DNA from: Sphaerisporangium rubeum | GTDB lineage: Bacteria > Actinomycetota > Actinomycetes > Streptosporangiales > Streptosporangiaceae | Direction of reading: 5' to 3' | Length of the DNA stretch: 64,000 nt | Assembly (NCBI RefSeq): GCF_014207705.1 | Contig: NZ_JACHIU010000001.1 | Location: 5,510,501-5,574,500, forward strand | Shown: positions 40,921 to 58,338 of the stretch, one piece after another | How the letters are laid out: every line of letters begins with the position of its first letter | How positions within the stretch are numbered: the first letter of the stretch is position 1 | Made by a program: the position numbers and the translations under genes | The notes under the pieces: generated by a model | What the model saw: only the letters and a program-made list of their open reading frames with translations | Databases searched by the model: none | Told to the model about the DNA's origin: nothing

Positions 40921-43329
40921 TCATGCCGACGAGCGGATGATCAGGTCGGTGGGGAGGATGACGGAGCCCGCCGGGCCGCCTTCGATGTGACGCAGCAGCA
41001 GGCGGATCGCGGCCCGTGCCTGATCGTGCATCGACGTGCGGATGGTGGTGAGCGGCGGGATGGTGAACGCGGCGGCGTCGATGTCGTCGAAGCCGATCAC
41101 TGCGACGTCGTCGGGGACGCGGCGGCCGGTCTCGTGCAACACGCTCAGCGCGCCGATGGCCATCAGGTCGTTGGCCGCGAAGACCGCGTCCAGCTCGGGG
41201 TCGTCCTCAAGGAGCCGGCGCATGGCCTCGGCGCCTGAGGTCCGGCTGAAGGACCCCAAGGCGATCATGGGCCGGCGGTCCTGCTCGGCGAGCACCTGCT
41301 CGTAGCCGGTGAGCCGGTCCTGAGCGGCGACGCTGTCCAGCGGACCACCGATCATGGCGACCCGGCGCCGGCCGGCCGACAGCAGGTGACGGACGGCGGC
41401 CACGGCTCCGCCGGTGTTGTCGGCGTCGACGTACGGCATGGCGCCGGGGGAGGCGGAGCGGCCGAGCGCCACCACCGGGACCCCGGTGCGCAGCAACGCG
41501 GCGCGTAACGGGTCACCGGCCGGGCCTGGCAGCAGGACGGCGCCGTCGACCTGACCGCCGGCCACGTAACTCTCCGCGCGGCTGCGGCTGCGGCTGGACC
41601 CCGCGAGGACCAGGGTGACGTGCTTGCCGGCCTCCTCCAGCGCGTGTCCGGCGGAACGGACCACGACCGAGAACGCCGGGTCCTCGCCACGGGTCCACGG
41701 CGCGTCGGGGACGATCAGCGCGACACCGTCGGTGCGTTCGGTGACGAGGCTGCGCGCGGCCGAGTTGGGGACGTACCCGAGCTCGTCCACCGCCTGCATG
41801 ACGGTGGCGCGGAACTCGTCGCTGACCGTGGCCTCTCCGTTGATGACCCGTGACACGGTCGAGCGCGACACCCCGGCCCGCGCCGCCACGGCCTCCAGCG
41901 TGGGTCGCCGCGCGCGCTCGTTGTGCAGGCCGTTGCGCCGGATCACGTCGCGGTACCACAGCGCGCTGTCCTTGAGCAGCCGCCGCTGGGTGGCGTAGTC
42001 GACGTGCACGATGCCGAACCTCTTGGTGTACCCCTCGGCCCACTCGAAGTTGTCCAGCAGCGACCACACGAGGTACCCCCGAAGGTCGGCCCCGGCCTGG
42101 ATCGCGTCGTACGCGGCACGCAGGTGCGCGTCGAGGTAGGCGACGCGGTCGGCGTCCCGCACCCGGCCCTCGGTGACCACGTCGTCGAACGCGGCGCCGT
42201 TCTCGGTGACGAGCAACCCCACACCCGGGTGGTCGCGGGTCAGGCGCTCCAGCATGCGGGACAGGCCGGTCGGCACGATGGGCCACCCCATGGCGGTGGT
42301 CGGCGCGTACGCACCGCAGAACTCGATGTCCTCGGTGCCGGGGTAGGCGGCGTTGGCCGGCTCACCGGGGCCGTAACGGACCACGCACGGCGTGTAGTAG
42401 TTGATGCCGAGCAGGTCGACAGGCTGCTTGATGGTGGTGAGGTCGCCGTCGCGGATGTGGCCGAGCCCGGCGGTGCGCTCGATCATCGGCAGCAGCCGCG
42501 CGGGGTACTCACCGCGCAGCGCGGGGTCGAGGAACTGCCGGTTCAGCAGCGCGTCGACCCGTTCCACCGCCTCGGCGTCCTCAGGCGACAGCTCGGCTGC
42601 GGGGTCGTTGACCTGACCCGGTGTCATCACCGGCGCGAGGTTGAGCATCAGCGCGATCGTCGCGGCCCCGTCGGCGCGCAGCGCCTGCGCGGTCAGCCCG
42701 TGCGCCAGCAGCAGGTGGTGCGCCGCACGGAACGCGTCCGCCATGGAGGTGCGGCCCGGCGCGTGCGCGCCGATGCCGTACCCGATGAACGCCGACACCC
42801 AGGGCTCGTTGACCGTCATCCACGTGCCGACCCGGTCGCCGAGCCGCTCGTACACCACACGCGCGTAGTCGGCGAGCCGGTACGCGGTGTCCCGGGAGGC
42901 CCACCCCCCGGCGTCCTCCAGGGCCTGCGGCAGATCCCAGTGGTACAGCGTGACGTACGGCGTGATGCCGGCGGCGAGCAGCCTGTCGACCAGGCGGTCG
43001 TAGAAGCCGAGCCCCGCCGCGTTGACGGCCCCCGCGCCGGCCGGCATGACGCGCGGCCATGACACCGAGAAGCGGTACGCCATCAGGTCGAGGCGATCCA
43101 TCAGCCCGACGTCCTCGGCGTACCGGTTGTAGTGGTCGCACGCGATCTCGCCGGTATGGCCTTGCAGGATGGCACCCTGCCGCCTGCCGAAGACATCCCA
43201 GATCGAGGGGCCGCGGCCGTCCGCGTCCACGGCACCCTCCACCTGGTAGGCGGCGGTGGCGGCCCCCCAGACGAACCCCTCGGGAAAGACGAGGGTCTTC
43301 CCGCGCGCGGCCATGGTGGTGGCGGTCAT
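40921..43329 (-). CDS. Fusion: GH1 beta-glucosidase followed by LacI-family regulator
   Basis: One 802-aa frame holds two complete proteins. Residues 1 to about 468 are a GH1 enzyme: FPEGFVWGAATAAYQVEGA near the start, acid/base glutamate in TVNEPW (about 175), nucleophile glutamate in VTENGAAFDD (376), and FEWAEGYTKRFGIVHVDY. Residues 476 onward are a LacI regulator, with helix-turn-helix TLEAVAARAGVSRSTVSRVI (about 477-496) and a periplasmic-binding-like core ending in GFDDIDAAAFTIPPLTTIR. The joint (RRNGLHNERARRPTLE) has no stop, ATG or TTG; one GTG near 41946 lacks a Shine-Dalgarno. The ATG at 43329 has GAGGAG ten bases upstream. The gene converges on the kinase gene with 13 bases between. 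Confidence 0.85.
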   Translation of the reverse strand: MTATTMAARGKTLVFPEGFVWGAATAAYQVEGAVDADGRGPSIWDVFGRRQGAILQGHTGEIACDHYNRYAEDVGLMDRLDLMAYRFSVSWPRVMPAGAGAVNAAGLGFYDRLVDRLLAAGITPYVTLYHWDLPQALEDAGGWASRDTAYRLADYARVVYERLGDRVGTWMTVNEPWVSAFIGYGIGAHAPGRTSMADAFRAAHHLLLAHGLTAQALRADGAATIALMLNLAPVMTPGQVNDPAAELSPEDAEAVERVDALLNRQFLDPALRGEYPARLLPMIERTAGLGHIRDGDLTTIKQPVDLLGINYYTPCVVRYGPGEPANAAYPGTEDIEFCGAYAPTTAMGWPIVPTGLSRMLERLTRDHPGVGLLVTENGAAFDDVVTEGRVRDADRVAYLDAHLRAAYDAIQAGADLRGYLVWSLLDNFEWAEGYTKRFGIVHVDYATQRRLLKDSALWYRDVIRRNGLHNERARRPTLEAVAARAGVSRSTVSRVINGEATVSDEFRATVMQAVDELGYVPNSAARSLVTERTDGVALIVPDAPWTRGEDPAFSVVVRSAGHALEEAGKHVTLVLAGSSRSRSRAESYVAGGQVDGAVLLPGPAGDPLRAALLRTGVPVVALGRSASPGAMPYVDADNTGGAVAAVRHLLSAGRRRVAMIGGPLDSVAAQDRLTGYEQVLAEQDRRPMIALGSFSRTSGAEAMRRLLEDDPELDAVFAANDLMAIGALSVLHETGRRVPDDVAVIGFDDIDAAAFTIPPLTTIRTSMHDQARAAIRLLLRHIEGGPAGSVILPTDLIIRSSA

Positions 43330-43401
43330 CGTGCTGCAGCTCCTCGTGGCCGGCCCGCGGGACGGCGCCGGTGCCGTCCCGTCCTTCCGGGCCTTTCTCA
43401 C

Positions 43402-43409
43402 CAACGTTG
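43402..43409. promoter_or_regulatory. Small palindrome CAACGTTG, possible LacI-type operator
   Basis: CAACGTTG lies 73 bases before the GH1-LacI start and in the divergent gap shared with the oxidoreductase at 43581. LacI operators are usually longer palindromes, so this is only a candidate. Confidence 0.2.
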
Positions 43410-43580
43410 TACACGACGGATGAGGACCCGGGCAGGGCCGCGACCAGGCCCTGTGGACAACTCGGGAAACCGGCGCGGGGAGACCGGAGGAAACGGACGC
43501 GTGCGGGGAACAACGAGCAGGTGGCCGAAGTTGGCCATGATCGTATGAGGACCGTCCCATCGACAAAGGAGCCACGCGTC

Positions 43581-48331: not shown

Positions 48332-48458
48332 GAACCCGGCAACCACCGCATCGAAGGGCCGCACGACCAGCACCCCGAGCTGGCCGATCTCCGTGCACGG
48401 CTCGGCGTGCGCGGCTGGGACAACCAGCGCAACGGTCACACCGGCGTCCCCGGACGGT
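48332..48458 (+). pseudogene. Coding-like fragment upstream of the MOSC gene end
   Basis: The plus strand in frame with 48347 reads about 42 codons with strong G/C third positions (segment HPELADLRARLGVRGWDNQR). It has no start and runs straight into the antisense of the MOSC gene. It looks like a broken piece of a gene. It cannot be assigned to a family. Confidence 0.25.
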
Positions 48459-49247
48459 TCACCCTGGCCGGACTTCGTCACCGACCCTCAGCTCACCAAG
48501 GTTCCTCGGCACCAGCCGGATGCCGAACCACGTCTTCCCGTCCCACCGGCGATGCTTGGCCAACGTTCTCAGCGGCTCCTTGCCACGCTCCTGAGTCCCC
48601 GGATCCAAGATGGTCACGGCGCAACGATCACACAACTCCGAGACCCCGAAGTCGATCTCCCCGATCCGAACCGACGTCCAGGCGTCCTCCGCGAACGGCT
48701 CCGCACCGTCAATGACGGCATTCGGCCGAAACCGCGCCACATCAAGAGGCCCCGGCACATGCTCCTGCCGTTCCATGGCCCCGTCCGCGATCCAGTCGTC
48801 CAAGCGCCGAAGCGAGCTCCTGGAAACCAGCAGCAGCGGCCCATCCCAGAGCCCGTCCTCTTCCTTGCCCCGGCGTCCGGGATCATCCAACCAGACAAGC
48901 CGCGCCGGTTCTCCAAGCAGCCGCGTGAACCACTCATGCGCGTCGTCATGAGCGAGCACAGCCCGATCAAGGTTGGAGACCCCCAACCGGATCGTCCCCC
49001 CGGCAGCCGGAGGAACCTTGAGCTCCCCCATCCCCTCCGCCGACAGCCAAACCCCACCTTCAGCAGTCTCCACCGCCGAGACCGAAAGAAGCCGAGGATA
49101 CTCACCGACCCAGATCAGCTTCCCCATCGGATCCACCACACCCCACCGTCGATCACCTTCCAGCCCCCACGGCAGGACCTGGACGGACCGACAGGAAATC
49201 CCCTTGGTGGACTTGACGGGATAGATGCGAATCTCCGCTAACTCCAT
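48459..49247 (-). CDS. MOSC domain protein
   Basis: The protein (262 aa from the ATG at 49247) has an N-terminal MOSC beta-barrel (ELAEIRIYPVKSTKGISCRS, then VLPWGLEGDRRWGVVD) and a C-terminal MOSC domain. The latter has RFRPNAVIDGAEPFAEDAW and the conserved cysteine in SELCDRCAVTILDPGT, the expected sulfur carrier or molybdenum ligand. Relatives include molybdenum cofactor sulfurase C-termini and amidoxime reductases (mARC/YcbX). No ferredoxin domain follows, unlike YcbX. No strong ribosome site is seen. Short plus-strand coding-like fragments flank the gene. Confidence 0.87.
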   Translation of the reverse strand: MELAEIRIYPVKSTKGISCRSVQVLPWGLEGDRRWGVVDPMGKLIWVGEYPRLLSVSAVETAEGGVWLSAEGMGELKVPPAAGGTIRLGVSNLDRAVLAHDDAHEWFTRLLGEPARLVWLDDPGRRGKEEDGLWDGPLLLVSRSSLRRLDDWIADGAMERQEHVPGPLDVARFRPNAVIDGAEPFAEDAWTSVRIGEIDFGVSELCDRCAVTILDPGTQERGKEPLRTLAKHRRWDGKTWFGIRLVPRNLGELRVGDEVRPG

Positions 49248-49310
49248 GCGCCAAGAATAAAAGCAACCCCCCAGAGAGCGCTCTCTCAACGAATCACCAA
49301 TGCCTCAAGA

Positions 49311-49448
49311 CCGTGCCTGATACTGCCGCCGGTCGACGTGCCCTGGGCCGCGGCCGACGTCGAGCTCTATGCGCAGGAAGTCCTCCGGCTCGATGTCCTT
49401 GACGAGGAACCGGGCCGCACGCTCGTGGACGACCTGGTGGGGACCTAG
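49311..49448 (+). pseudogene. Truncated 3' end of an unidentified gene
   Basis: The plus strand has about 45 codons ending at TAG (49446-49448), with G-rich first and G/C third positions typical of real genes here (segment DVELYAQEVLRLDVLDEE). No suitable start or ribosome site exists, so it is probably a remnant. The family is not recognised. The minus-strand frame over the same bases has weaker codon bias. Confidence 0.35.
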
Positions 49449-49888
49449 GGTCCCCGAGTACAACGAACCCCCCGACCTGCGAGTCACCCACCCTCTTCAA
49501 CCCCACCTTCTGCAAGACACCACACCCACCGACACACCAACCGCTGCGGACACAACCCCCATCCCCGACACCAAGCGCTGCAGACTAACCACATCACCGA
49601 CACACCGACCCACCCGGTGCCCCTCCGCCACATCGGCGAGCACCACCGAGTCCACGAACAGCGGCCGCACGGGAGTCGTAACACTCATCGCCCATACAAC
49701 ACCCACCCGGACCGCAACCCCACCACAAACGGCACATACAGCACATCCACTACGAACGGCGACATCCACACCATTGATCGCATTACCTCGAATCGCGACC
49801 CCACCACGAACGGCACATTCACGCACCCACCACGGATCGCAACGCGCACCACGGAACGAAACACCCACCACCACCTCCGCACCCCTCC
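49449..49888. other. Gene-free, C/A-rich low-complexity region
   Basis: About 440 bases with short imperfect repeats (for example CACGAACGGCACAT-like motifs near 49725 and 49805). Frames on both strands lack codon bias. I see no gene here. Confidence 0.5.
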
Positions 49889-49941
49889 CCGGCGCCGACG
49901 CGGCCCGCACCACCTACGGCGAAGCCGGCGCCGCCGTACAG
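49889..49941. repeat. Palindromic intergenic element, copy B
   Basis: Related to copies A (23239) and C (50637). Its core TACGGCG (49915-49921) pairs with CGCCGTA (49932-49938) around a GCCGGC centre. It ends five bases before the stop codon of the minus-strand DCC gene. Confidence 0.6.
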
Positions 49942-49945
49942 CGTG

Positions 49946-50317
49946 TCACTTGGCACCGATGCCACAGGTGCCGGCCCCCGTACCTCCAGGAAGACGATGA
50001 CGATACCTGGAGACCAACCGGTAAACGACCTCGGCGACCCAGCTGATCGGCGGTGTCAGGGCGACATTTCCGAGGATCCGCCACGGCAAGGACGGCTGCA
50101 CAGCCAGGAGAATGCCGACCGCGCGAGCACCATGAGCACGCATGCCGTCCGGACCGAGCAGCTGCACGGACGCGTTGACCTGAGCCAAGGTGAGCCCATG
50201 GCGAGCCAGATCGAGCCCCTGCCACGCCGACACCCTCGGCATGAACGGCAGGTACTTACGCGCGAAATCCAGGCACAGCCGGCAAAAACCACAATCGCCG
50301 TCATAGACCAGCAGCAT
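49946..50317 (-). CDS. DCC-family thiol-disulfide oxidoreductase (DUF393)
   Basis: The 123-aa protein starts LLVYDGDCGFCRLCLDFAR, with the D-x-x-C-x-x-C DCC motif. It continues with VSAWQGLDLARHGLTLAQV and a C-terminal WRILGNVALTPPISWVAEVV-like helix, all as in DUF393. A thioredoxin-like fold and redox role are known only for the family. The ATG at 50317 lies behind AGGGGGC. The longer open frame to 50518 runs through a tandem repeat and is not coding. Confidence 0.85.
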   Translation of the reverse strand: MLLVYDGDCGFCRLCLDFARKYLPFMPRVSAWQGLDLARHGLTLAQVNASVQLLGPDGMRAHGARAVGILLAVQPSLPWRILGNVALTPPISWVAEVVYRLVSRYRHRLPGGTGAGTCGIGAK

Positions 50318-50448
50318 GCTCGTAGCCCCCTGCACCGTGGATCCGACCTGAACCCCTACATTCCGCGACCACGCGACCCTACACATGGATACCGTGATCT
50401 CCGGCCCCATGTCCCCAGACGCCGGAGGCATCATGCCGAACGTGATCC

Positions 50449-50576
50449 CAGACCCGGCTCGGTAACCACACGACACGTCACCCTCCAGACCCGGCTCGGT
50501 AACCACGCGACACGTCACCCTCCAGACCCGGCTCGATTACCACGCGACGCGTCACCCTCCAAACTCGACCCGGTAG
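50449..50576. repeat. 37-bp tandem repeat, about 3.4 copies
   Basis: Units beginning CAGACCCGGCTCGGTAACC start at 50449, 50486 and 50523, exactly 37 bp apart, with a decayed fourth copy at 50560. They lie between cobD and the DCC gene and have no spacers, so this is not a CRISPR array. Confidence 0.9.
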
Positions 50577-50636
50577 CGGGCTCCCCGCATACCCGGCACC
50601 ACACCCCTCCGTCCTCCCACCTCGACACCATCTCGA

Positions 50637-50690
50637 CCGGCGCCGCGACGGCGAGCAGTGGCACGGCGAACCCGGCGCCGCCCTACGGCC
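50637..50690. repeat. Palindromic intergenic element, copy C
   Basis: Begins CCGGCGCCGCGACGGCG exactly like copy A and continues CACGGCGAACCCGGCGCCG. It ends ten bases before the cobD stop (minus strand). Confidence 0.6.
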
Positions 50691-50699
50691 CCCGCCACC

Positions 50700-51647
50700 T
50701 CACCTGCGGACAGTCGGCCGTCCCCGCAGCCCCCAGGACACCCCCACGGCCAGCACCCCCGCCGCCACCCCCACAACCCGCGCAAGCCGCACAGCTCGCC
50801 GGATGTCAGAAACCTCAGGCCGCCCCCCATCCCCCAACTCAGGCCGATACTCCACCCGCCCCCCGTACTCGTTCCGCCCCCCAAGCCGAACCCCCAACCC
50901 CCCCGCGAACGCCGCCTCACACCGCCCCGCGTTAGGACTCGGATGCCGATGCCCATCCCGAATCCAAACAGCCAAAGCCTCCGGGGGAGACCCCCCGACC
51001 ACAGGCGCCAGCAGACAAGCCAACCCCGCCGTAACCCGCGCCGGCACCCAATTAGCCAAGTCATCCACCCGAGCCGCCGCCCACCCAAAATGCTCGTACC
51101 GCTCCGACCGATGCCCCACCATCGCATCCAACGTGTTGACAGCCCGATAAACAAGCAACCCCGGCACCCCCGCCACCGCCCCCCAGAACAACGGCGCCAC
51201 CACAGCATCCGATGTGTTCTCCGCCACCGACTCCACCGTGGCCCGAACCAACTCCCCCTCCCCCAACCCGGAAGGATCCCGACCACACAGATGCGGCAAC
51301 CTCCCCCGAGCCGCCTCCAGATCCCCACCCTCAAGGGCCCGAGCCATGAACACCCCCTCCCGTCCGAGAGAGGTCCCCCCCAGCACAGCCCAAGTAGCCA
51401 GCGCCGTGACAGCAGTCCGCCCCACCGAACTCCTCCGGCTCACCCGCTCAGCGACGACCCCCAAACCCCCCGCCGCCCCCACACACACGACCACATGCAC
51501 AACCCCCCGTCCCCGAGACCCCCCATAAACCCGCCGCTCCACCCACCCCGCGAACCGTCCGAAAACGGCCACCGGATGCCCCACCCCCTCCGGATCCCCG
51601 AACAAACCATCCGCCGCGACCCCCAGCAAAATCCCCAGCCCCCGCAC
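50700..51647 (-). CDS. cobD: Adenosylcobinamide-phosphate synthase (CobD/CbiB)
   Basis: The protein (315 aa) is an integral membrane enzyme that attaches aminopropanol (or its phosphate) to cobyric acid late in cobalamin synthesis. It opens GLGILLGVAADGLFGDPEGV and continues GHPVAVFGRFAGWVERR, FWGAVAGVPGLLVYRAVNTL, DAMVGHRSERYEHFGWAAAR and DDLANWVPAR, all diagnostic. The GTG at 51647 has GGGGAGGGG six bases upstream and gives the family length; an ATG at 51719 would add 24 unrelated residues and overlap the next gene. Codon use is unusual, rich in GGG, GTT and TTG. Confidence 0.92.
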   Translation of the reverse strand: MRGLGILLGVAADGLFGDPEGVGHPVAVFGRFAGWVERRVYGGSRGRGVVHVVVCVGAAGGLGVVAERVSRRSSVGRTAVTALATWAVLGGTSLGREGVFMARALEGGDLEAARGRLPHLCGRDPSGLGEGELVRATVESVAENTSDAVVAPLFWGAVAGVPGLLVYRAVNTLDAMVGHRSERYEHFGWAAARVDDLANWVPARVTAGLACLLAPVVGGSPPEALAVWIRDGHRHPSPNAGRCEAAFAGGLGVRLGGRNEYGGRVEYRPELGDGGRPEVSDIRRAVRLARVVGVAAGVLAVGVSWGLRGRPTVRR

Positions 51648-51693
51648 AACACACCCCTCCCCAACACCGATCACCAAGCAAGCACAAACGGTA

Positions 51694-52494
51694 CTACCGC
51701 AGACAAAAAGCAAGCTCATCCCAGTTGGCATCAAGCCAAGCCGCGGCCCGCCGAATCCGATCCCCCGCCCCCGCGTCCCACATCCGAGCCCACCCCCCAC
51801 CCTCACGAACAGCCCGCACCCGCATCCGCTCGTACGACCGCCCGAACCGCAACCGACTGACCTCCAGCAACCGCCGCCGCTCCCCGGCCTCCAATCCGTA
51901 GGCATCACAGAACAGCCGCAGCCGCCTCCCCACATCAAGCCCCCGCTGCCGAGGATCCCGATCGATCGGATCAGCGACAGGCCCCCAGTGCCGCAAGGTG
52001 GTGGCGATGTCGTACACCCGCGTCACCGGCCGCGCCATATCGAAGTCGATCAACCCCCAAGGCCGCTCATCCCGAAAAATCACATTCTCCGTAGTGATGT
52101 CGCAATGCCCCACCAATTCAGGCACCCCGTCATCCCCCGACCCGTCCTCCCAAACAGCACCCGCCGGCACCCGAAACGAAGCCACCGCATCGTGATACCG
52201 CCGAACCAACCCCCCAAGCTCCTCCAACACGTCATCCCGCACCACATAAGCCGGCAGAGGCCAAACCCCCGCCTCCCCCGGCAAGTAAGAAAGCACCTCC
52301 CGCCCCGACTCATCCACCCCCAGCACCCGAGGCGCCCCCTCGAACCCCACATCCTCCAGGTGCCGTAACAACGCATGAACCGCCTCAGCCGACCGCCCCA
52401 TCCTCCGCCGCACGGTATCCCCGACCCGCACGACCCCACCCGTCACATCCCCACCAGGAAGCCCGATCTCCACATCGGCCGTACGCAAACCCAT
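51694..52494 (-). CDS. APH-family phosphotransferase
   Basis: The protein (266 aa) has the aminoglycoside phosphotransferase/choline kinase fold. It shows VLSYLPGEAGVWPL in the N-lobe hinge, a catalytic loop GHCDITTENVIF (with aspartate and asparagine in place) and a metal-binding IDFDMA. No resistance-specific motif is visible, and many such genes in actinomycetes act on small alcohols or are orphan. The ATG at 52494 was chosen because family similarity begins there. It is followed after 46 bases by cobD. Confidence 0.85.
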   Translation of the reverse strand: MGLRTADVEIGLPGGDVTGGVVRVGDTVRRRMGRSAEAVHALLRHLEDVGFEGAPRVLGVDESGREVLSYLPGEAGVWPLPAYVVRDDVLEELGGLVRRYHDAVASFRVPAGAVWEDGSGDDGVPELVGHCDITTENVIFRDERPWGLIDFDMARPVTRVYDIATTLRHWGPVADPIDRDPRQRGLDVGRRLRLFCDAYGLEAGERRRLLEVSRLRFGRSYERMRVRAVREGGGWARMWDAGAGDRIRRAAAWLDANWDELAFCLR

Positions 52495-52660
52495 GCCACC
52501 CAACCATAGCCCCACCCCACCAAGATCACATGTCCTGAAGTGCGAGTTCACCCGAAACAGCCCACCTCCGCCCCCTCAAGAACCCCCGAAATCCGCCCCC
52601 GACACAGCGTCGACCACTCCGCCACCTACGTACTTCCGCCCCTGCTCCCCGAATCCGACC

Positions 52661-53620
52661 TCAAGCAGGCCCCTGTTCCCCCTCCCGCTCCCCACCCCGA
52701 GTCTGAACGAACCGCCGCACCATCTCGGTAGACCTCCACCCCGTGATCCTCATCAACTCAAGCGGATCCCCCCCGGCCGCCAGATGCCCCTCCGCCACCG
52801 TGTACCGGAACCGATGCGGATGCAGCCGCCCCGCGATCCCCGCCTCCCTCCCCCGCCGCTCCAAGATCTGCTGAATCCCCGAAGCCGTAAGCCTCCGCTC
52901 CCCACCCCGAGCCGTGACCCCCCGCATCGGCAACCACAACCAGGGAGACGACGCATGCGGATGCCGAGCACGAGCCCGCAGATACCGATCAATGGCCCCC
53001 ACCGCCTGAGCCCCGACCGGCGCCAGATGCGCCTCCCTCCCCACCCCCCGATCGATCCGCAACACCCCTTCCTCCAACCGCACATCATTCTGACTCTCGT
53101 CATCCGGCCGGTACCGCAACCCCGCCAGCCCCGAGACCCGCATCCCGTTGTCCATCAAGATCCGAATGATCGCCATATCCCGTCGATCCACCCAAGACCC
53201 CCCCGAACACACCTCCACCAACGCAGCCAACTCCCCCTCCCCCAACACCTCAACCCCCCGCACCCCCACCTCAGGCGCCTCAACCCCCTCCACCGGCGAC
53301 CCCGCAACACGCTCCCCCTCAGCTATCAACCAGTTAAAAAACACCCGAAGATTCCGAAAATGCTTATGAGCATTCCCCGCACTGGTCTCAACCGCACAGA
53401 CCTCCAAAAACCCCCGAACATCCTCAACCCCCACCCCCTCCACATCCGCCGACACCCCCCGCTCCGCCAGAAACCCAGCCAGCGCCCGTACGCTGTCCAG
53501 GTAACTCCGCACCGTCCCCTCCGACCGCCCCGCCGCCCGCAACGCCATCTCCCAGGACCCCACAAGCTCCAACAACGGCACAACCCGCACCTCAGATCTT
53601 CGACCCCGCACCCCAACCAT
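52661..53620 (-). CDS. Tyrosine recombinase lacking the catalytic tyrosine
   Basis: The protein (319 aa) has an N-terminal SAM-like core-binding domain (VGSWEMALRAAGRSEGTVRS, then YLDSVRALAGFL) and a C-terminal phage-integrase domain. The first arginine (DNGMRVSGLAGLRY) and the box II HRFRYT (H269, R272) are present, and W295 sits where Cre has its tryptophan. Nine residues later, where the nucleophilic tyrosine should be, is phenylalanine (F304, TTC codon), and no tyrosine follows. The protein is therefore probably unable to cleave DNA. It lies next to the tRNA-Arg gene but its sequence is unrelated to the AICE integrase. Confidence 0.85.
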   Translation of the reverse strand: MVGVRGRRSEVRVVPLLELVGSWEMALRAAGRSEGTVRSYLDSVRALAGFLAERGVSADVEGVGVEDVRGFLEVCAVETSAGNAHKHFRNLRVFFNWLIAEGERVAGSPVEGVEAPEVGVRGVEVLGEGELAALVEVCSGGSWVDRRDMAIIRILMDNGMRVSGLAGLRYRPDDESQNDVRLEEGVLRIDRGVGREAHLAPVGAQAVGAIDRYLRARARHPHASSPWLWLPMRGVTARGGERRLTASGIQQILERRGREAGIAGRLHPHRFRYTVAEGHLAAGGDPLELMRITGWRSTEMVRRFVQTRGGEREGEQGPA

Positions 53621-53707
53621 CTCCAAATCCGATACTGTTCAACCGCCGACCGAATATGCTACCTTCCACCATGACCCGTGAACCCCCAGTTCACCACCCC
53701 AAACCAA

Positions 53708-53781
53708 GCGCCCTTAGCTCAGCCGGACAGAGCACCGGACTTCTAATCCGACGGTCGCAGGTTCGAATCCTGCAGGGCGCG
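53708..53781 (+). tRNA. tRNA-Arg (anticodon TCT)
   Basis: A 74-base gene: acceptor GCGCCCT pairs with AGGGCGC, D-arm GCTCAG..GAGC, anticodon loop CTTCTAA with TCT, T-arm GCAGG-TTCGAAT-CCTGC. CCA is not encoded. The top pair of the anticodon stem is a C-A mismatch. It is the integration target of the downstream elements. Confidence 0.95.
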
Positions 53782-53797
53782 CCCTCCACAACCAGTC

Positions 53798-53840
53798 GCA
53801 AGAGCCCCTGACCAGCAGCTTCACGGTCAGGGGCTCTTGC
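53798..53840. terminator. Terminator downstream of tRNA-Arg
   Basis: A perfect 16-bp stem (GCAAGAGCCCCTGACC at 53798-53813 and its complement at 53825-53840) with an 11-base loop. It can terminate the tRNA transcript and, on the other strand, the former integrase gene. A near copy is at 55629-55665. Confidence 0.8.
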
Positions 53841-53925
53841 GTTGCTGTCCGGCTGTGTCCGGTTGTCACCGAGGATCTACGGCACGTTGTTCCCAATGCG
53901 TTCCCACGGCTCCGGCTACGGGTCC

Positions 53926-54067
53926 TCAGTGGTCGAGCGCTTCAGAGATCCGGCGCTTGGCCGCTTCGTCCTGACCCACGATGCACTTGACGTAAATGCG
54001 CAGGGGAGTTCCGCGCTGTGCCCTGTCCACTGGGCGACCTGGGTAGCAGGGACGCCAGCATTGAGCC
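53926..54067 (-). pseudogene. 3' remnant of an AICE integrase
   Basis: The minus strand encodes a decayed version of the last ~48 codons of the intact integrase at 55749. NAGVPATQVAQWTGHSAE is in one frame and IYVKCIVGQDEAAKRRISEA in another, so a frameshift lies between. The catalytic tyrosine remains in the second part. Everything upstream in the gene is missing. Confidence 0.85.
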
Positions 54068-54109
54068 CGTGGAGGCGCGGCGCCGGAGATCTTAGATGCG
54101 GCACCCCGG

Positions 54110-54520
54110 CTACTTGGGGAGGAACAGGGCAACGATGGCTGCGAGACAGGACACCGCGGATGCCAGGGCTGCAATGGAAGCTAGACCCTCTTTGGGTGAG
54201 GTCCACAAGCCGTGATTGAGACGGCGGAGCTTCTCCGAGCCCAGTCGGCGAAAGAAGTTCTGCCGCTTGTGCTGCTGAAGCTGGCAGCCGGCCATCAGCC
54301 CGTAGGCGTTGTTCCTACATGCACCATCCCTACCTTGCGCTCCGCAGGGGCGAGGCACCCGAAACAGGAAGTAGTAGATCGCCAGAAGCGAGCCAGCGAT
54401 GATGAAGGGCGCGACTTTGACTTTGTCGTCCACTAGCCACCAAGCCGCCATTAGGCCGAGGAGCAGCGCGTATCCCCAGTACTTCGCGATGAACCCCTTG
54501 TTCTTCTTCGTCTGGGCCAC
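54110..54520 (-). CDS. Hypothetical membrane protein (island cargo)
   Basis: The 136-aa protein has three hydrophobic helices, at about residues 14-30 (WGYALLLGLMAAWWLV), 36-53 (VAPFIIAGSLLAIYYFLF) and 113-134. Between the second and third is a cysteine-bearing loop with CGAQGRDGACRNNAYGLMAG, a GC-rich basic segment. The N-terminus AQTKKNKGF is basic. It belongs to no family I recognise. It lies inside the degraded element and reads away from the cargo gene at 54762. Confidence 0.65.
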   Translation of the reverse strand: MAQTKKNKGFIAKYWGYALLLGLMAAWWLVDDKVKVAPFIIAGSLLAIYYFLFRVPRPCGAQGRDGACRNNAYGLMAGCQLQQHKRQNFFRRLGSEKLRRLNHGLWTSPKEGLASIAALASAVSCLAAIVALFLPK

Positions 54521-54761
54521 TCACGGACCGTACCGACGGGTGAGGACGATGGGATAGAGAGACATCAATGACGGCAAGTAACGCGACCCTGTGTTGACAA
54601 CGCAGGGTCGCCGATTCCGGCATAGGCGCCGCGCGGGGGCATCGCCATAAGACTGCCGCACCATACCGAGACACGCGCTCCCCGCCAGCACGCCGCCGGA
54701 TCGAATCGATCTCCTTGGGCTAGAACTGCGGGAACCATTGCGAATCATGACAGGTTCGGCT

Positions 54762-55553
54762 TCAAAGTCCGCGTGCACGTCCGACCCTTTCAATCTTTCG
54801 CCTCACTTCAAGCATATTTCTTGCTGCCTCAAGCCCTTCATCGCGGACCGCGTCGTACTCCGCCCATCCTCCTTGACGCTCACTTGCAGGGACAATTTCA
54901 TACACATAGTCCCCATTTGGCAGGGCATCCGAGCATGCGAAGCCATTTGCACCAAGCCAGACCGTCAGATTTTCGCAGCATGAACGGAACTCAATGAACA
55001 CATCCTGGACTTCCATATCATCAAAAAACCGCTCCCGCCATCCATCAGTAAACCCGTACAAATCGTCAACCCGTACCCCCCTCCACTTCTTGGCGTTGAA
55101 TCCATGCTCCAGAAACATCATGGCGCCCTTTTCCCAAGGAAATAGCTTTAGCAGTTCGGCGAATGTATCCTTGTCGCGGAGAGTGGGATGTAGCCGCCGC
55201 TCAAGATTCTGAATCTCGACCTTTAGCCCGTCTAGTTGCTCGTCGCGCGTCCGCAGCGCGGAAGCGTGCTCATCGTCACGCTTTTGCAGCTCGGCGATTC
55301 TATTCCCCTCACACTTTCGCAACCTCGCGGCAGCTCGATTGGCGAACACTGCAAAAACCACAATAAGTCCAGCAGTGACCCAGAAAAGAACGAAAGGATT
55401 CTGCTTTACCCAGTCACGCACGTCGTCAGAGAGCAGGAGGGCCGCGACGGCCGCAGCGTCGGCGACGATGCTAATGATGGTCATGGCTGTCGACGTAGCG
55501 ACTCGCTCAATAGGGCCTGATGATTGCATAAAGCCAAGGGTAGAGCCGACCAT
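54762..55553 (-). CDS. Hypothetical membrane-anchored coiled-coil protein (island cargo)
   Basis: The 263-aa protein has two membrane helices (about 24-41 and 53-75), a charged coiled-coil stretch at about 78-120 (IAELQKRDDEHASALRTRDE) and a soluble C-terminal domain (125-263). The latter has EVQDVFIEFRSCCENLTVWL and GDYVYEIVPASERQGGW. The DNA has lower GC and looser codon use than the surroundings, which indicates recent transfer. The function is unknown; membrane plus sensor-like architecture on an integrated element suggests a defence or signalling role, a guess. The ATG at 55553 or an internal ATG at 55529 could be used. Confidence 0.7.
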   Translation of the reverse strand: MVGSTLGFMQSSGPIERVATSTAMTIISIVADAAAVAALLLSDDVRDWVKQNPFVLFWVTAGLIVVFAVFANRAAARLRKCEGNRIAELQKRDDEHASALRTRDEQLDGLKVEIQNLERRLHPTLRDKDTFAELLKLFPWEKGAMMFLEHGFNAKKWRGVRVDDLYGFTDGWRERFFDDMEVQDVFIEFRSCCENLTVWLGANGFACSDALPNGDYVYEIVPASERQGGWAEYDAVRDEGLEAARNMLEVRRKIERVGRARGL

Positions 55554-55572
55554 GGAGATCTCTCAGCAACAA

Positions 55573-55605
55573 CTAATCCGACGGTTGCAGGGCTCGAATC
55601 CTGCA
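55573..55605. other. Diverged copy of the tRNA-Arg 3' end (att-like site)
   Basis: The 33 bases CTAATCCGACGGT..GAATCCTGCA match tRNA bases 53743-53774 except for one C-to-T change, one inserted base and a T-to-C/G difference near the T-loop. It marks the boundary between the degraded element and the intact one to the right. Confidence 0.7.
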
Positions 55606-55628
55606 AATCGTGCCCCCGTTGCTCCAAA

Positions 55629-55665
55629 AGAGCTCCTGACCAGCGGCTTCGCGGTCAGGGGCTCT
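55629..55665. terminator. Terminator downstream of the AICE integrase
   Basis: Stem AGAGCTCCTGACC/GGTCAGGGGCTCT with an 11-base loop, one G-T pair. It is a near copy of the hairpin at 53798-53840, so both elements carried the same end structure. Confidence 0.7.
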
Positions 55666-55748
55666 CTCGTGCATCTCCGGCTGCGTCCCGCCGTGATCGA
55701 GGCTCGGGACGTTCTTCCGAACATCTCCCTGCGGCCCCGGCGTGCTCG

Positions 55749-57161
55749 TCAGCCGTCGAGCGCTTCGGAGATCCGGCGCTTGGCCGCTTCGTCCTGGCCC
55801 ACGATGCACTTGGCGTAGATGCGCAGGAGGACTTCCACGCTGTGCCCTGCCCACTCGGCTACCTGGGTAGCAGGGACGCCGGCGTTGAGCCACGTTGAGA
55901 CACAGGCGTGCCGCAGGTCGTACACGCGCCGGGCCAGCGGTGAGGCGTACTCCCTGTCCGTGAGAGCCGTCCGACGCGCCTTCTTCCATGCGCGCCGGTA
56001 GGTGATACCAGGCAACTCCCCGCCCTGCTCTCCAAAGAACAGACGTCCGTCCGGTCCCCTGCCGTACGCGACGGCCATGTGAGCCCGCAGAGTTCTCGTC
56101 AGGGCGGGCGGACAGGGGACGGCGCGGGTGTGCCCGTCCGCGCGATGCTTCAGGGCACGTTCCTCGCGGAGCGTGCCGCCATCGGTCCACTCGCGGCCGG
56201 CGAACGGGGCCGCCGCGGCGAGATGCAGCTCACCCCAACCGTTCGCCGGTTCTTCCCACTCGCCGGTTTCCTCGTTGAGCACCAGGGCTGGGAGGATGAC
56301 GTTGTCTTCCCGGAGATTGACAACTTCTTCTGGGCGAAGTGCGGCGTAGTACATGACTGCAAAGAAGGCCACGAGACGGGGACCGCTACGTGTTTGCTCA
56401 CCAACCGCTTTGAGCAGTGCACGTGCCTGCGCGTGGTTGACGACACTTCGCCGGTCCACTTCGTGTGCAACCTTTGGCGGACTCCACTTGAGTTTCTTGA
56501 TGGGATTCTCGGCGAGAACGCCGATTTCCACGGCGTAATCAAGGGCGTTCTGGAGAATGGTCTTGTTTCTGATGACCGTGCTCGTGGCGGCTCGCTTGCC
56601 ATTCAGCAGGGACGTTGCGGTGTCCAGCACAGCACGAAGAATTGCCGGGTCGGCAAGCACTGCCACGGGCTGCGAGTTCTCAGCGAGCCAGCGGATAACC
56701 TCGGCCACCTCGGGCGAAGCGTCGGCGCGCTGCTTGGTGTTGTACCCCCAGCGTCGCATGGCGGTACGCAGGGCGAGCGCATCCGGCTTTCCAGGGCCGT
56801 CAGCCAGCAAGGCCGGCGTGGCAGCGGTGAGTGCCCGTGAGATGTCCTGTCGGTACTTCGCGGATGCGGCTTTCCACTTCATGTCAACGAAGCGGCAGGC
56901 GAAGTCGTACCAACTCATCTCGGGCTTGTCCTCACGTGCCCACGAGACGGGTTCTCCAGTGGCCATGCTGAATGCTTCACCGTTGCGGCTGGCGGTTACC
57001 AGGGCGCTGCGATAGGCATCCGCTTGTGCTGTCTTCTGGAATGCCTTCTTCCGTGACTTTCCATCGGTCTGCCAAAGAACGCGATAGGAGGTGACCACAC
57101 CCTTGGCGTTCTTCCGCTTTTCCGTCTTGTAAATTCGGACTTTGTATGTGGTGCCGTTCAT
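55749..57161 (-). CDS. int: AICE site-specific integrase (tyrosine recombinase)
   Basis: The protein (470 aa) is a tyrosine recombinase of the pSAM2/AICE type. Arm-binding and core-binding domains fill residues 1 to about 230. The catalytic domain shows ALRPEEVVNLRED (first arginine), YDLRHACVSTWLNAGVP (R417, H418), WAGHSVEV (H440) and IYAKCIVG, with Tyr449 as nucleophile. Spacing of H440 and Y449 is nine, as expected. It inserts the element into the 3' end of tRNA-Arg. Its ATG at 57161 overlaps the xis stop (ATGA). A terminator lies just after its 3' end. Confidence 0.95.
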   Translation of the reverse strand: MNGTTYKVRIYKTEKRKNAKGVVTSYRVLWQTDGKSRKKAFQKTAQADAYRSALVTASRNGEAFSMATGEPVSWAREDKPEMSWYDFACRFVDMKWKAASAKYRQDISRALTAATPALLADGPGKPDALALRTAMRRWGYNTKQRADASPEVAEVIRWLAENSQPVAVLADPAILRAVLDTATSLLNGKRAATSTVIRNKTILQNALDYAVEIGVLAENPIKKLKWSPPKVAHEVDRRSVVNHAQARALLKAVGEQTRSGPRLVAFFAVMYYAALRPEEVVNLREDNVILPALVLNEETGEWEEPANGWGELHLAAAAPFAGREWTDGGTLREERALKHRADGHTRAVPCPPALTRTLRAHMAVAYGRGPDGRLFFGEQGGELPGITYRRAWKKARRTALTDREYASPLARRVYDLRHACVSTWLNAGVPATQVAEWAGHSVEVLLRIYAKCIVGQDEAAKRRISEALDG

Positions 57162-57346
57162 CCGGTCAGGTCCTCCAGGCTGGTAAGCCAACGGTCATAG
57201 TCGGCGCGACGCACGCGCAGGTCGCCGTTCGGAAGTCGCATGCACCTGGGCGCGCGGCCTTTCTGCCGCCAGTCGTAGAAGGTTGAGCGGCTGATGCCGA
57301 GGTCTTCGCAGATGTCCGCGATCGTGAGCTTTTCGGCCCTGGCCAC
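57158..57346 (-). CDS. xis: Excisionase (Xis, helix-turn-helix)
   Basis: The 62-aa protein is a MerR-like HTH_17 excisionase: LTIADICEDLGISRSTFYDW followed by RQKGRAPRCMRLPNGDLRV and DYDRWLTSLED. It directs excision of the element together with Int. The GTG at 57346 has AAGGAGAG eight bases upstream, a strong site that overrides the longer open frame to 57784. Its stop overlaps the int start. Confidence 0.9.
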   Translation of the reverse strand: MARAEKLTIADICEDLGISRSTFYDWRQKGRAPRCMRLPNGDLRVRRADYDRWLTSLEDLTG

Positions 57347-57385
57347 GGGTGTCTCTCCTTGCAATTCGGCGGATTGGGGAGGGGT

Positions 57386-57454
57386 AGCCGTCCCAGCCGT
57401 CCCAGGGTCATTTCTGCTGGTCAGGCTGGGACGGCTTGTCTGGCTGGGACGGCT
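57386..57454. repeat. GGGACGGCT repeats left of the IS (4 copies)
   Basis: AGCCGTCCC occurs at 57386-57394 and 57395-57403, and GGGACGGCT at 57428-57436 and 57446-57454. Five more copies lie to the right of the IS (58372-58450). They sit in the xis upstream region of the element. Confidence 0.75.
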
Positions 57455-57523
57455 TAGAGCTCCTAACAGAATGATCTTTGTTGTGCTTTGATCTCTCGCT
57501 GTAGCCGAGTGAGAGGACCACGG

Positions 57524-57934
57524 GTGGCCAAGCTGAAGCCGTGGGAGGTCAGCGACGAGTTGTGGGCGGTGATCGAGCCGCTGTTGCCTCAGCGTCAGCG
57601 CCGGTTCCGGCATCCGGGGCGTAAGCGGCTGGATGATCGGCTGGCGTTGCAGGGCATCTTGTTCGTGCTGCACACCGGGATCGCCTGGGAACACCTGCCT
57701 CAGGAACTGGGCTTCGGCTCGGGCATGACCTGCTGGCGGCGCCTGGCCGAGTGGAACGCCTCCGGCGTCTGGCAGCGGCTGCACGAAGTGCTGCTCGATC
57801 GGCTGCGCGCCGCTGACGCGCTCGACCTCTCCCGCGCCGCGGTGGATTCCTCGCAGATCAGGGCGTTAAAAGGGGGCCGCAGACCGGCCCGTCCCCGGTC
57901 GACCGAGGGCGAGCCGGCAGCAAGCACCATCTGA
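57524..57934 (+). CDS. IS5-family transposase, frame A (N-terminal part)
   Basis: This frame begins with VAKLKPWEVSDELWAVIEPL from the GTG at 57524, preceded in frame by a short extension from 57488. It continues with RRFRHPGRKRLDDRLALQGI and DLSRAAVDSSQIRALKGG. The DDE aspartate is in AVDSS. It then leaves the transposase frame after the A-AAA-GGG run at 57866-57875 and stops at 57934. Expression of the full enzyme requires a -1 shift into frame B. It is one of two parts of a single transposase. Confidence 0.8.
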   Translation: MAKLKPWEVSDELWAVIEPLLPQRQRRFRHPGRKRLDDRLALQGILFVLHTGIAWEHLPQELGFGSGMTCWRRLAEWNASGVWQRLHEVLLDRLRAADALDLSRAAVDSSQIRALKGGRRPARPRSTEGEPAASTI

Positions 57935-58338
57935 TCACCGATGCAGGCGGCGTCCCGCTGGCCGTCATCTTGACCGGCGCCAACCGCAATGATGTCACCC
58001 AGCTTCGCCCGCTGCTGGACGCCATCCCCAAAGTCCGTGGCAAGCGCGGGCGCCCCCGGCAACGCCCCGATGCGGTACTCGCCGACCGCGGCTACGACCA
58101 CGACAAGTACCGCCGCCTGGTCCGCGAGCTGCAGATCCGCCCGCTGATCGCCCGACGCGGCACCGAGCATGGCTCCGGCCTGGGCAAACAACGGTGGGTC
58201 GTCGAGCAGACCTTCGCCCTGCTGCACGCCTTCCGGCGCTTGCGCATCCGCTGGGAGATCCGCGCCGACATCCACGAAGCCTTCCTCAAGCTCGCCTGCG
58301 CACTCATCTGCTGGCGACGCCTCGCCTCATTGCGTTAG
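57875..58338 (+). CDS. IS5-family transposase, frame B (C-terminal part)
   Basis: The second frame lies one base back from frame A and resumes just after the slippery AAAAGGGGG (57867-57875). It reads KHHLITDAGGVPLAVILTGA and NRNDVTQLRPLLDAIPKV, with the second catalytic aspartate in VLADRGYDHDKY. It ends with QRWVVEQTFALLHAFRRLRI, which carries the DDE glutamate. The first ATG is at 57970, but that would lose conserved sequence, so translation by -1 frameshifting is more likely. Confidence 0.78.

Follow-up and report, generated by a model that had tools for sequence, protein, structure and literature searches.

Within the window, the whole stretch of 64,000 nucleotides of Sphaerisporangium rubeum DNA that was analysed, a single gene on the minus strand encodes a GH1 beta-glucosidase followed in the same frame by a LacI-type regulator, and comparison with related genomes points to what looks like a single old fusion event whose product is still joined in dozens of species. 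This picture suggests that joining the enzyme to the repressor does something useful. The reading favoured here, to which we give somewhat less than an even chance, is that the fused gene, having arisen once, encodes a bifunctional protein: a beta-glucan regulon would have in it a second regulator, able to destroy its own inducer.

One frame for an enzyme and a regulator

Re-derivation from the sequence returned the frame, coordinates and strand of the original prediction (40921-43329, minus, 802 codons), with the ATG at 43329 and the end of the frame at 40921. The gene and its parts are as follows.

40921..43329, minus strand: fused GH1-LacI gene, 802 aa plus stop (open-frame reading, Pfam, 76 fused relatives)
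41929..43290, minus strand: GH1 beta-glucosidase domain, residues 14-467 (Pfam PF00232, 529 bits; TIGR03356, 584 bits)
42805..42807, minus strand: E175, acid/base, in the NEP motif (invariant in 77/77 fused)
42202..42204, minus strand: E376, nucleophile, in the TENG motif (invariant in 77/77 fused)
41908..41928, minus strand: linker LHNERAR, residues 468-474 (spacing constant in 76/77 fused; pLDDT below 50 in the model)
41914..41916, minus strand: R472, aligned with the stop codon of 7/8 split relatives that share the 180-nt spacing
41764..41901, minus strand: LacI helix-turn-helix and start of the hinge, residues 477-522 (Pfam PF00356, conservation in 77 fused)
40927..41724, minus strand: LacI sugar-binding and dimerisation core, residues 536-801 (Pfam Peripla_BP_1/3)
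43340..43345, minus strand: GAGGAG, Shine-Dalgarno-like site 10 nt before the ATG (read from the sequence)

The Glyco_hydro_1 profile of Pfam is matched over its full length (positions 4-452 of 453) at 529 bits against a cut-off of 22.6, and the NCBIfam model for GH1 beta-glucosidases, TIGR03356, at 584 bits against 478.5. E175 and E376, whose roles as acid/base and nucleophile we take from established GH1 knowledge, are also invariant in the 51 split loci aligned (51/51), and the nine residues Q29, H130, N174, E175, N310, E376, W422, E429 and W430 are invariant in 77/77 fused proteins (we take the glycone-site set of GH1 enzymes to be Q, H, N, W, E and W). Judged by its sequence, the first half is a complete GH1 beta-glucosidase with intact catalytic residues, for which hydrolysis is predicted. 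The second half carries a LacI helix-turn-helix (HTH; PF00356, residues 477-522, 63 bits) and a Peripla_BP_3 match over residues 646-801 (PF13377, 117 bits), both above cut-off, as is PF00532. It has the layout of LacI/GalR proteins, an HTH with hinge followed by a periplasmic-binding-protein core, but not the usual position of the HTH at the extreme N-terminus, as 474 residues precede it in frame. Profile matches and invariant glutamates thus agree with the original prediction of a full GH1 enzyme, with E175 and E376, followed by a full LacI protein.

In an AlphaFold2 model built from a 26-row alignment (mean pLDDT 87.5, pTM 0.60), the GH1 part is mostly confident and its last helix spans residues 454-466; residues 468-474, at pLDDT below 50, lead into the three HTH helices, which are followed by a low-confidence hinge (522-531) and the core, the LacI part being made up of helices and strands. 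On this model the linker looks flexible, and the mutual placement of the GH1 and LacI parts is consequently not predicted.

Elsewhere in the window, positions 48400-58000 are lower in G+C, with strong GC and AT skew and a poor coding signal. This segment holds two Phage_integrase (Pfam) frames, 52661-53626 and 55749-57191, both on the minus strand, and a 37-bp tandem repeat at 50448-50575, and its appearance is that of a mobile element, integrated or in decay.

Distribution, joint and ancestry of the fused gene

A search of 341 genomes of the window's family gave, among the matches listed, 130 loci (L007-L136); they were found with a query spanning both halves, so that the presence of both halves in all 77 fused loci is no evidence in itself. 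All but one (L132) could be classified, 77 as fused and 52 as split (129/130). The fused loci lie in 77 different genomes under 11 genus labels, the genome of Thermocatellispora tengchongensis DSM 45615 (G322, locus L018) among them, and their number is a lower bound, a locus of similar kind (G070:C16) standing outside the count. The split loci are a sample biased towards pairs with agreeing frames (50/52), since the search joined same-frame matches; L026 and L100 are identical copies within one genome. The unclassified L132 is a GH1 gene of Nonomuraea dietziae (G171) with no LacI joined to it, and the genus label of that species, g40, is common to many fused genomes. In a class-wide sample of 296 genomes, four of the matches listed in order of score span the joint without a stop, all of them from the window's family, and no fused locus from outside that family occurs among the matches listed; of at least 80 further loci, the 31 for which both flanks of the joint align are split without exception (31/31). 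Searching related genomes for the joint, as the original prediction had proposed, yields 76 further fused genomes, 75 of them with identical spacing, and the contrary outcome that it had named, homologues always split with a start codon before the HTH, is not what was found, 77 of 129 loci being fused.

The distance between residues 440 and 500 is exactly 180 nt in 76/77 fused loci (174 nt in L089) and ranges from 180 to 243 nt in the 50 frame-agreeing split loci. Eight split loci share the 180-nt spacing, and seven of them have a stop (TAG or TGA) at R472 and an ATG at A473, as in the alignment of split NGLRGS*MRRPTLE with fused NGLHNERARRPTLE; in L099, likewise split at 180 nt, the stop aligns with residue 469. 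Position 472 is Arg in 66 of the 74 aligned fused proteins (the alignment used for per-position variability leaves out the truncated L044, L097 and L098), and linker residues 469-471 are variable. Constant length is also a property of many segments within the GH1 and LacI parts, and the loops at about 40-80, 540-560 and 680-700 vary.

The frame runs through the joint without a stop and, again as originally described, without a well-placed internal start: the only candidate that the window's fused gene has within 14 codons before RPTL is a GTG at -13, a Val codon common to 18/77 fused loci, in none of which it has a Shine-Dalgarno match of at least 4. In 56/77 fused loci no ATG, GTG or TTG lies within 14 codons before RPTL, and none of the 25 candidate internal starts, from 21 loci, has such a match (0/25), which by the same measure is present at 31/52 split LacI starts and 55/77 fused GH1 starts. 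A conserved internal start was rejected on these two counts.

Quick trees place the fusion on one branch. In the tree of 128 concatenates of GH1 and LacI halves, the fused loci form one side of a branch (SH-aLRT 100) with no split locus nested among them, and the fused/split trait changes once on this tree, a value as low as this being reached in 0/500 shuffles. With named outgroups, the fused loci again fall on one side in the tree of GH1 halves (SH-aLRT 98) and in that of 75 LacI halves (SH-aLRT 100); L131 was left out of the trees and residue counts, and the short LacI rows L097 and L098 out of the LacI tree. A sequencing or assembly error that removed a stop was considered and rejected as practically without probability, given that 76 other genomes share the fused frame, that the spacing is constant and that the fused loci fall on one side of a single branch. 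The claim that enzyme and regulator form one polypeptide is strongly supported at the level of sequence by this one-sided position in three trees, by the constant linker and by the absence of a stop, an ATG or a Shine-Dalgarno match at the joint.

Both halves are, by the substitution pattern, under purifying selection: in 13 fused pairs chosen by hand, no computable dN/dS for the GH1 part, the HTH region or the core exceeds 0.53. Across the 77 fused proteins the HTH and hinge hardly vary, G486 differing in 15/57 clade B loci; in the core, R672, D721 and D749 show no substitution in any fused row that reaches these positions. Position 720 is N in 31, S in 15 and D in 5 of the 51 split proteins and is N in 2/74 fused ones, which otherwise have S, T, G or D. 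The ratio of core to GH1 divergence is 1.82 in clade A, the window's clade, 1.14 in clade B and 0.75 in split relatives, and that of HTH region to GH1 divergence is 0.60, 0.50 and 0.46, respectively, with little or no speed-up. From the faster divergence of the core and the loss of N720 it follows that ligand sensing by the LacI part may have shifted or weakened in the fused proteins, a point that counts against the reading favoured here.

The AGCGCT box and its candidate readers

The fused gene stands outside ABC-permease operons, and its split relatives mostly follow ABC-permease genes: a permease C-terminus motif occurs within 260 nt before GH1 in 40/51 split loci versus 1/77 fused (L097). 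Upstream of 19 of 20 split operons (the exception is L245) lies the palindrome GAGAGCGCTCTC or a near copy with an AGCGCT core, in 16 of these at a distance of 3.2-3.9 kb from the end of the upstream sequence, a place that in L237 is just upstream of the first ABC gene. It matches the boxes given in PMC3377646 for Streptosporangium roseum (GGAGAGCGCTCTCC, before Sros_7173) and T. bispora (AGAGAGCGCTCTCT, before Tbis_0842); the authors suggest that two regulators may act on the S. roseum operon.

Twenty fused-bearing genomes together hold 178 perfect copies of GAGAGCGCTCTC versus 6 for a reversed-pattern control, and the window's genome holds five. One of these, with three near-copies, lies upstream of an ABC-GH1 operon (L282, 8260-12874) that consists of SBP_bac_8, two BPD_transp_1 permeases and GH1, with no LacI behind it. 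Two more precede a separate LacI gene by about 430 and 600 nt, another lies about 45 nt before a GH64 beta-1,3-glucanase gene, and near-copies precede a GH3 gene. The fifth, in the form of the palindrome AGAGAGCGCTCTCT, is in the window itself at 49273-49286, where it precedes the ATG (49247, minus) of a MOSC-domain gene by about 25 nt. The MOSC gene has no obvious sugar link, and this box is about 5.9 kb from the fused gene.

The separate LacI gene (L283, 5338-6324; C1:1857337-1858323) lies about 1.2 Mb from the ABC-GH1 operon, and its product is 74% identical to the regulator of split L099 and 60% identical to the fused LacI half, to which L099 is also 60% identical; by sequence it is likely the orthologue of the LacI that is missing beside the operon. 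A second LacI at least 73% identical to L283, presumably unfused, is present in 29 of 30 fused-bearing genomes examined, the window's own included, the exception being G030, a genome 83% complete. At about 430 and 600 nt the boxes before L283 are far for an operator, which counts against the reading favoured here.

The recognition helix VSRSTVSRV is shared by the fused protein and the split regulators L021, L099, L101, L102 and L133, all five of which have a box upstream (L227, L237, L238, L239 and L243). Since the same helix goes with the box in all five, the fused HTH probably recognises, in trans, this GAGAGCGCTCTC box or one close to it.

Its target is probably not its own promoter. The GAGAGCGCTCTC box is absent from the fused promoters of clade A, and in a palindrome scan of 18 clade A promoters (leaving out L020, a near copy of L019) the best GC-rich 16-mer was found in 4/18, against at most 2 in three shuffles, 12- and 14-mers doing no better than shuffles. 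As neither a box nor a clearly conserved palindrome marks these promoters, the DNA target of the fused LacI probably lies elsewhere. The phrase "its repressor" in the original prediction should consequently be qualified, a target in the fused gene's own promoter being improbable. Autoregulation through an AACGTT palindrome at about 43400-43411 was rejected, the palindrome being absent from the other aligned clade A promoters and no box lying there. Outside clade A, GCCTGGCCAGGC with at most 1 mismatch occurs in 30/58 fused promoters, about 50-90 nt before the start. The palindrome TGAGCGCTCA is found about 33 nt upstream of the start in eight fused genes (L077, L081 and L090-L095), and in this subgroup alone (genus labels g30 and g31) it may serve as an autoregulatory site.

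The surroundings of the fused gene were compared in 21 contexts of about 12 kb. No AGCGCT-core box (at most 1 mismatch) was seen in 16 of them, which counts against the favoured reading, and neighbours shared among the 21 are nearly all confined to one genus label. In 4/21, an opposite-strand CBM6 gene lies 0.2-2.7 kb behind the fused gene, with two boxes at or before its start; these four contexts all carry the genus label g40, the label that also covers Nonomuraea dietziae, and one box in L264 is a one-mismatch copy. GH16 is recognised in these CBM6 proteins above cut-off in L264 and L266 and just below it in L262 and L265.

Possible functions of the fusion and comparison with known systems

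The helix and box shared with split regulators, together with a boxless promoter of its own, lead to the reading of the fused protein as a second beta-glucan regulator joined to an enzyme that removes the inducer. The course of events and the working of the product, which we infer together with the single-chain product, the recognition of the box by the fused HTH, the nature of the ligand and the resetting, may be pictured as follows. The fusion would have arisen once in the window's family, which is probably Streptosporangiaceae, with a copy of an ABC-GH1-LacI operon as its most likely source. The GH1-LacI pair would have separated from the transporter genes, a sense codon (at present mostly Arg) would have replaced the intergenic stop codon, and with the decay of the LacI ATG and its ribosome site the regulator could be made only as the C-terminal part of the enzyme. 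The fused protein would then work beside the separate, enzyme-less LacI paralogue on the GAGAGCGCTCTC-marked beta-glucan regulon. Its LacI core would dimerise and bind a beta-gluco-oligosaccharide, the putative ligand, upon which the HTH would be released from DNA, and the flexibly tethered GH1 part would hydrolyse the same class of oligosaccharide. By holding the sensing and the destruction of the inducer at a 1:1 ratio, and by uncoupling the enzyme-regulator pair from the induced operon, the fusion would presumably let the switch reset when the sugar supply ends. N-terminal fusions to LacI, e.g., GFP-LacI, bind DNA, so that the enzyme-first architecture is compatible with repression. Any preference of the GH1 part for beta-1,3 over beta-1,4 oligosaccharides is putative at most, which is counted against this explanation. 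A more specific proposal, that a self-terminating switch has been kept through the diversification of the lineage and competes with the enzyme-less paralogue at the same boxes, the ratio of the two proteins setting how long the regulon stays on, seems to us rather unlikely.

A different role had been envisaged at the outset, in which the sugar released by the enzyme would be sensed at the DNA, and this finds no support. A kcat/Km taken to be about 1e5 per M per s compares with a diffusion limit above 1e9, and as the latter is so much higher, a rough estimate says that one tethered enzyme can neither deplete nor enrich the sugar in its vicinity, which makes local sensing unlikely. The fused enzyme may be a tethered sensor or may serve to remove the inducer.

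The main rival to a regulator that destroys its inducer is co-production without any new mechanism, a possibility with an appreciable, though lesser, claim: enzyme and repressor would act independently, the loss of the stop having become fixed and then irreversible once the start had decayed. An irreversible accident of this kind would also leave the fused loci on one side of the tree with no split locus nested among them, and it sits well with a linker that is flexible (pLDDT below 50 over residues 468-474) and variable at residues 469-471. The constant linker length in 76/77 and the Arg that occupies the old stop position in 66/74 suggest constraint instead, although many structured segments are equally constant in length.

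Another mechanism would make the GH1 part the sensor, with substrate occupancy altering DNA binding through the dimer while the LacI core loses its own sensing. It would account for a core that diverges at 1.8 times the GH1 rate in clade A, versus 0.75 in split relatives, next to a conserved HTH, and for the replacement of N720 in the presumed pocket, where N is kept in 2/74 fused proteins. However, R672, D721 and D749 of the core are still invariant, the flexible linker of the model offers no rigid coupling, and the catalytic residues, unneeded for pure sensing, have been kept, and we consider this mechanism improbable. The chance is lower again that two products are made, internal initiation or proteolysis of the linker giving free LacI besides the fusion; the GTG 13 codons before RPTL, present in the window and in 18/77 fused loci, and the disorder of the linker in the model would permit this, but the candidate starts have no Shine-Dalgarno match (0/25), 56/77 loci have no start codon to use, and the ATG of the split relatives has been lost.

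It is common for a glycosidase and a LacI repressor with the same ligand to be encoded by adjacent separate genes. No description of a GH1-LacI fusion was found in the literature searched, and the words "fused" and "fusion" are absent from PMC4052901, on LacI regulons; protein databases may already list the architecture. A lineage that has the one-protein form, split relatives and a paralogue in the same genome provides natural controls, with which the effect of joining signal sensing to signal destruction on the dynamics of a sugar switch becomes directly testable, and the order of an enzyme before a LacI HTH would be a ready natural example for the design of enzyme-coupled repressors.

Trigger enzymes and enzyme-regulators such as PutA, NadR and BirA also combine a metabolic enzyme and DNA-binding regulation in one chain. 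They belong to other enzyme and DNA-binding families, and their regulation has been demonstrated, whereas in the fused GH1-LacI protein it is deduced from the architecture. Closer at hand, L283, L021 and L099 have the same HTH core as the fused LacI and boxes upstream, but are unfused and have their own start codon. The mark of CelR/CebR we take to be an HTH of the VGRGTVSRVING type, and a CelR/CebR identity was rejected, as the fused proteins have VSRSTVSRVING at this place and do not cluster with the VGRGT loci L112-L130. These loci, together with L286, form a CelR-like split GH1-LacI set with the HTH VGRGTVSRV within the window's family; in L286, from the window's genome, a separate LacI of VGRGT type belongs to an ABC-GH1 region, and TGGGAGCGCTCCCA, the box taken as the CelR/CebR mark, lies upstream of the ABC genes. 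The actinobacterial cellobiose operons (ABC transporter, beta-glucosidase and LacI) of T. fusca CelR and of S. roseum (Sros_7169-7173) agree with the split relatives in enzyme family, regulator family and gene order; the part of PMC3377646 drawn on here describes two distinct genes for them and mentions no fusion, whereas the fused gene described here lies outside such an operon.
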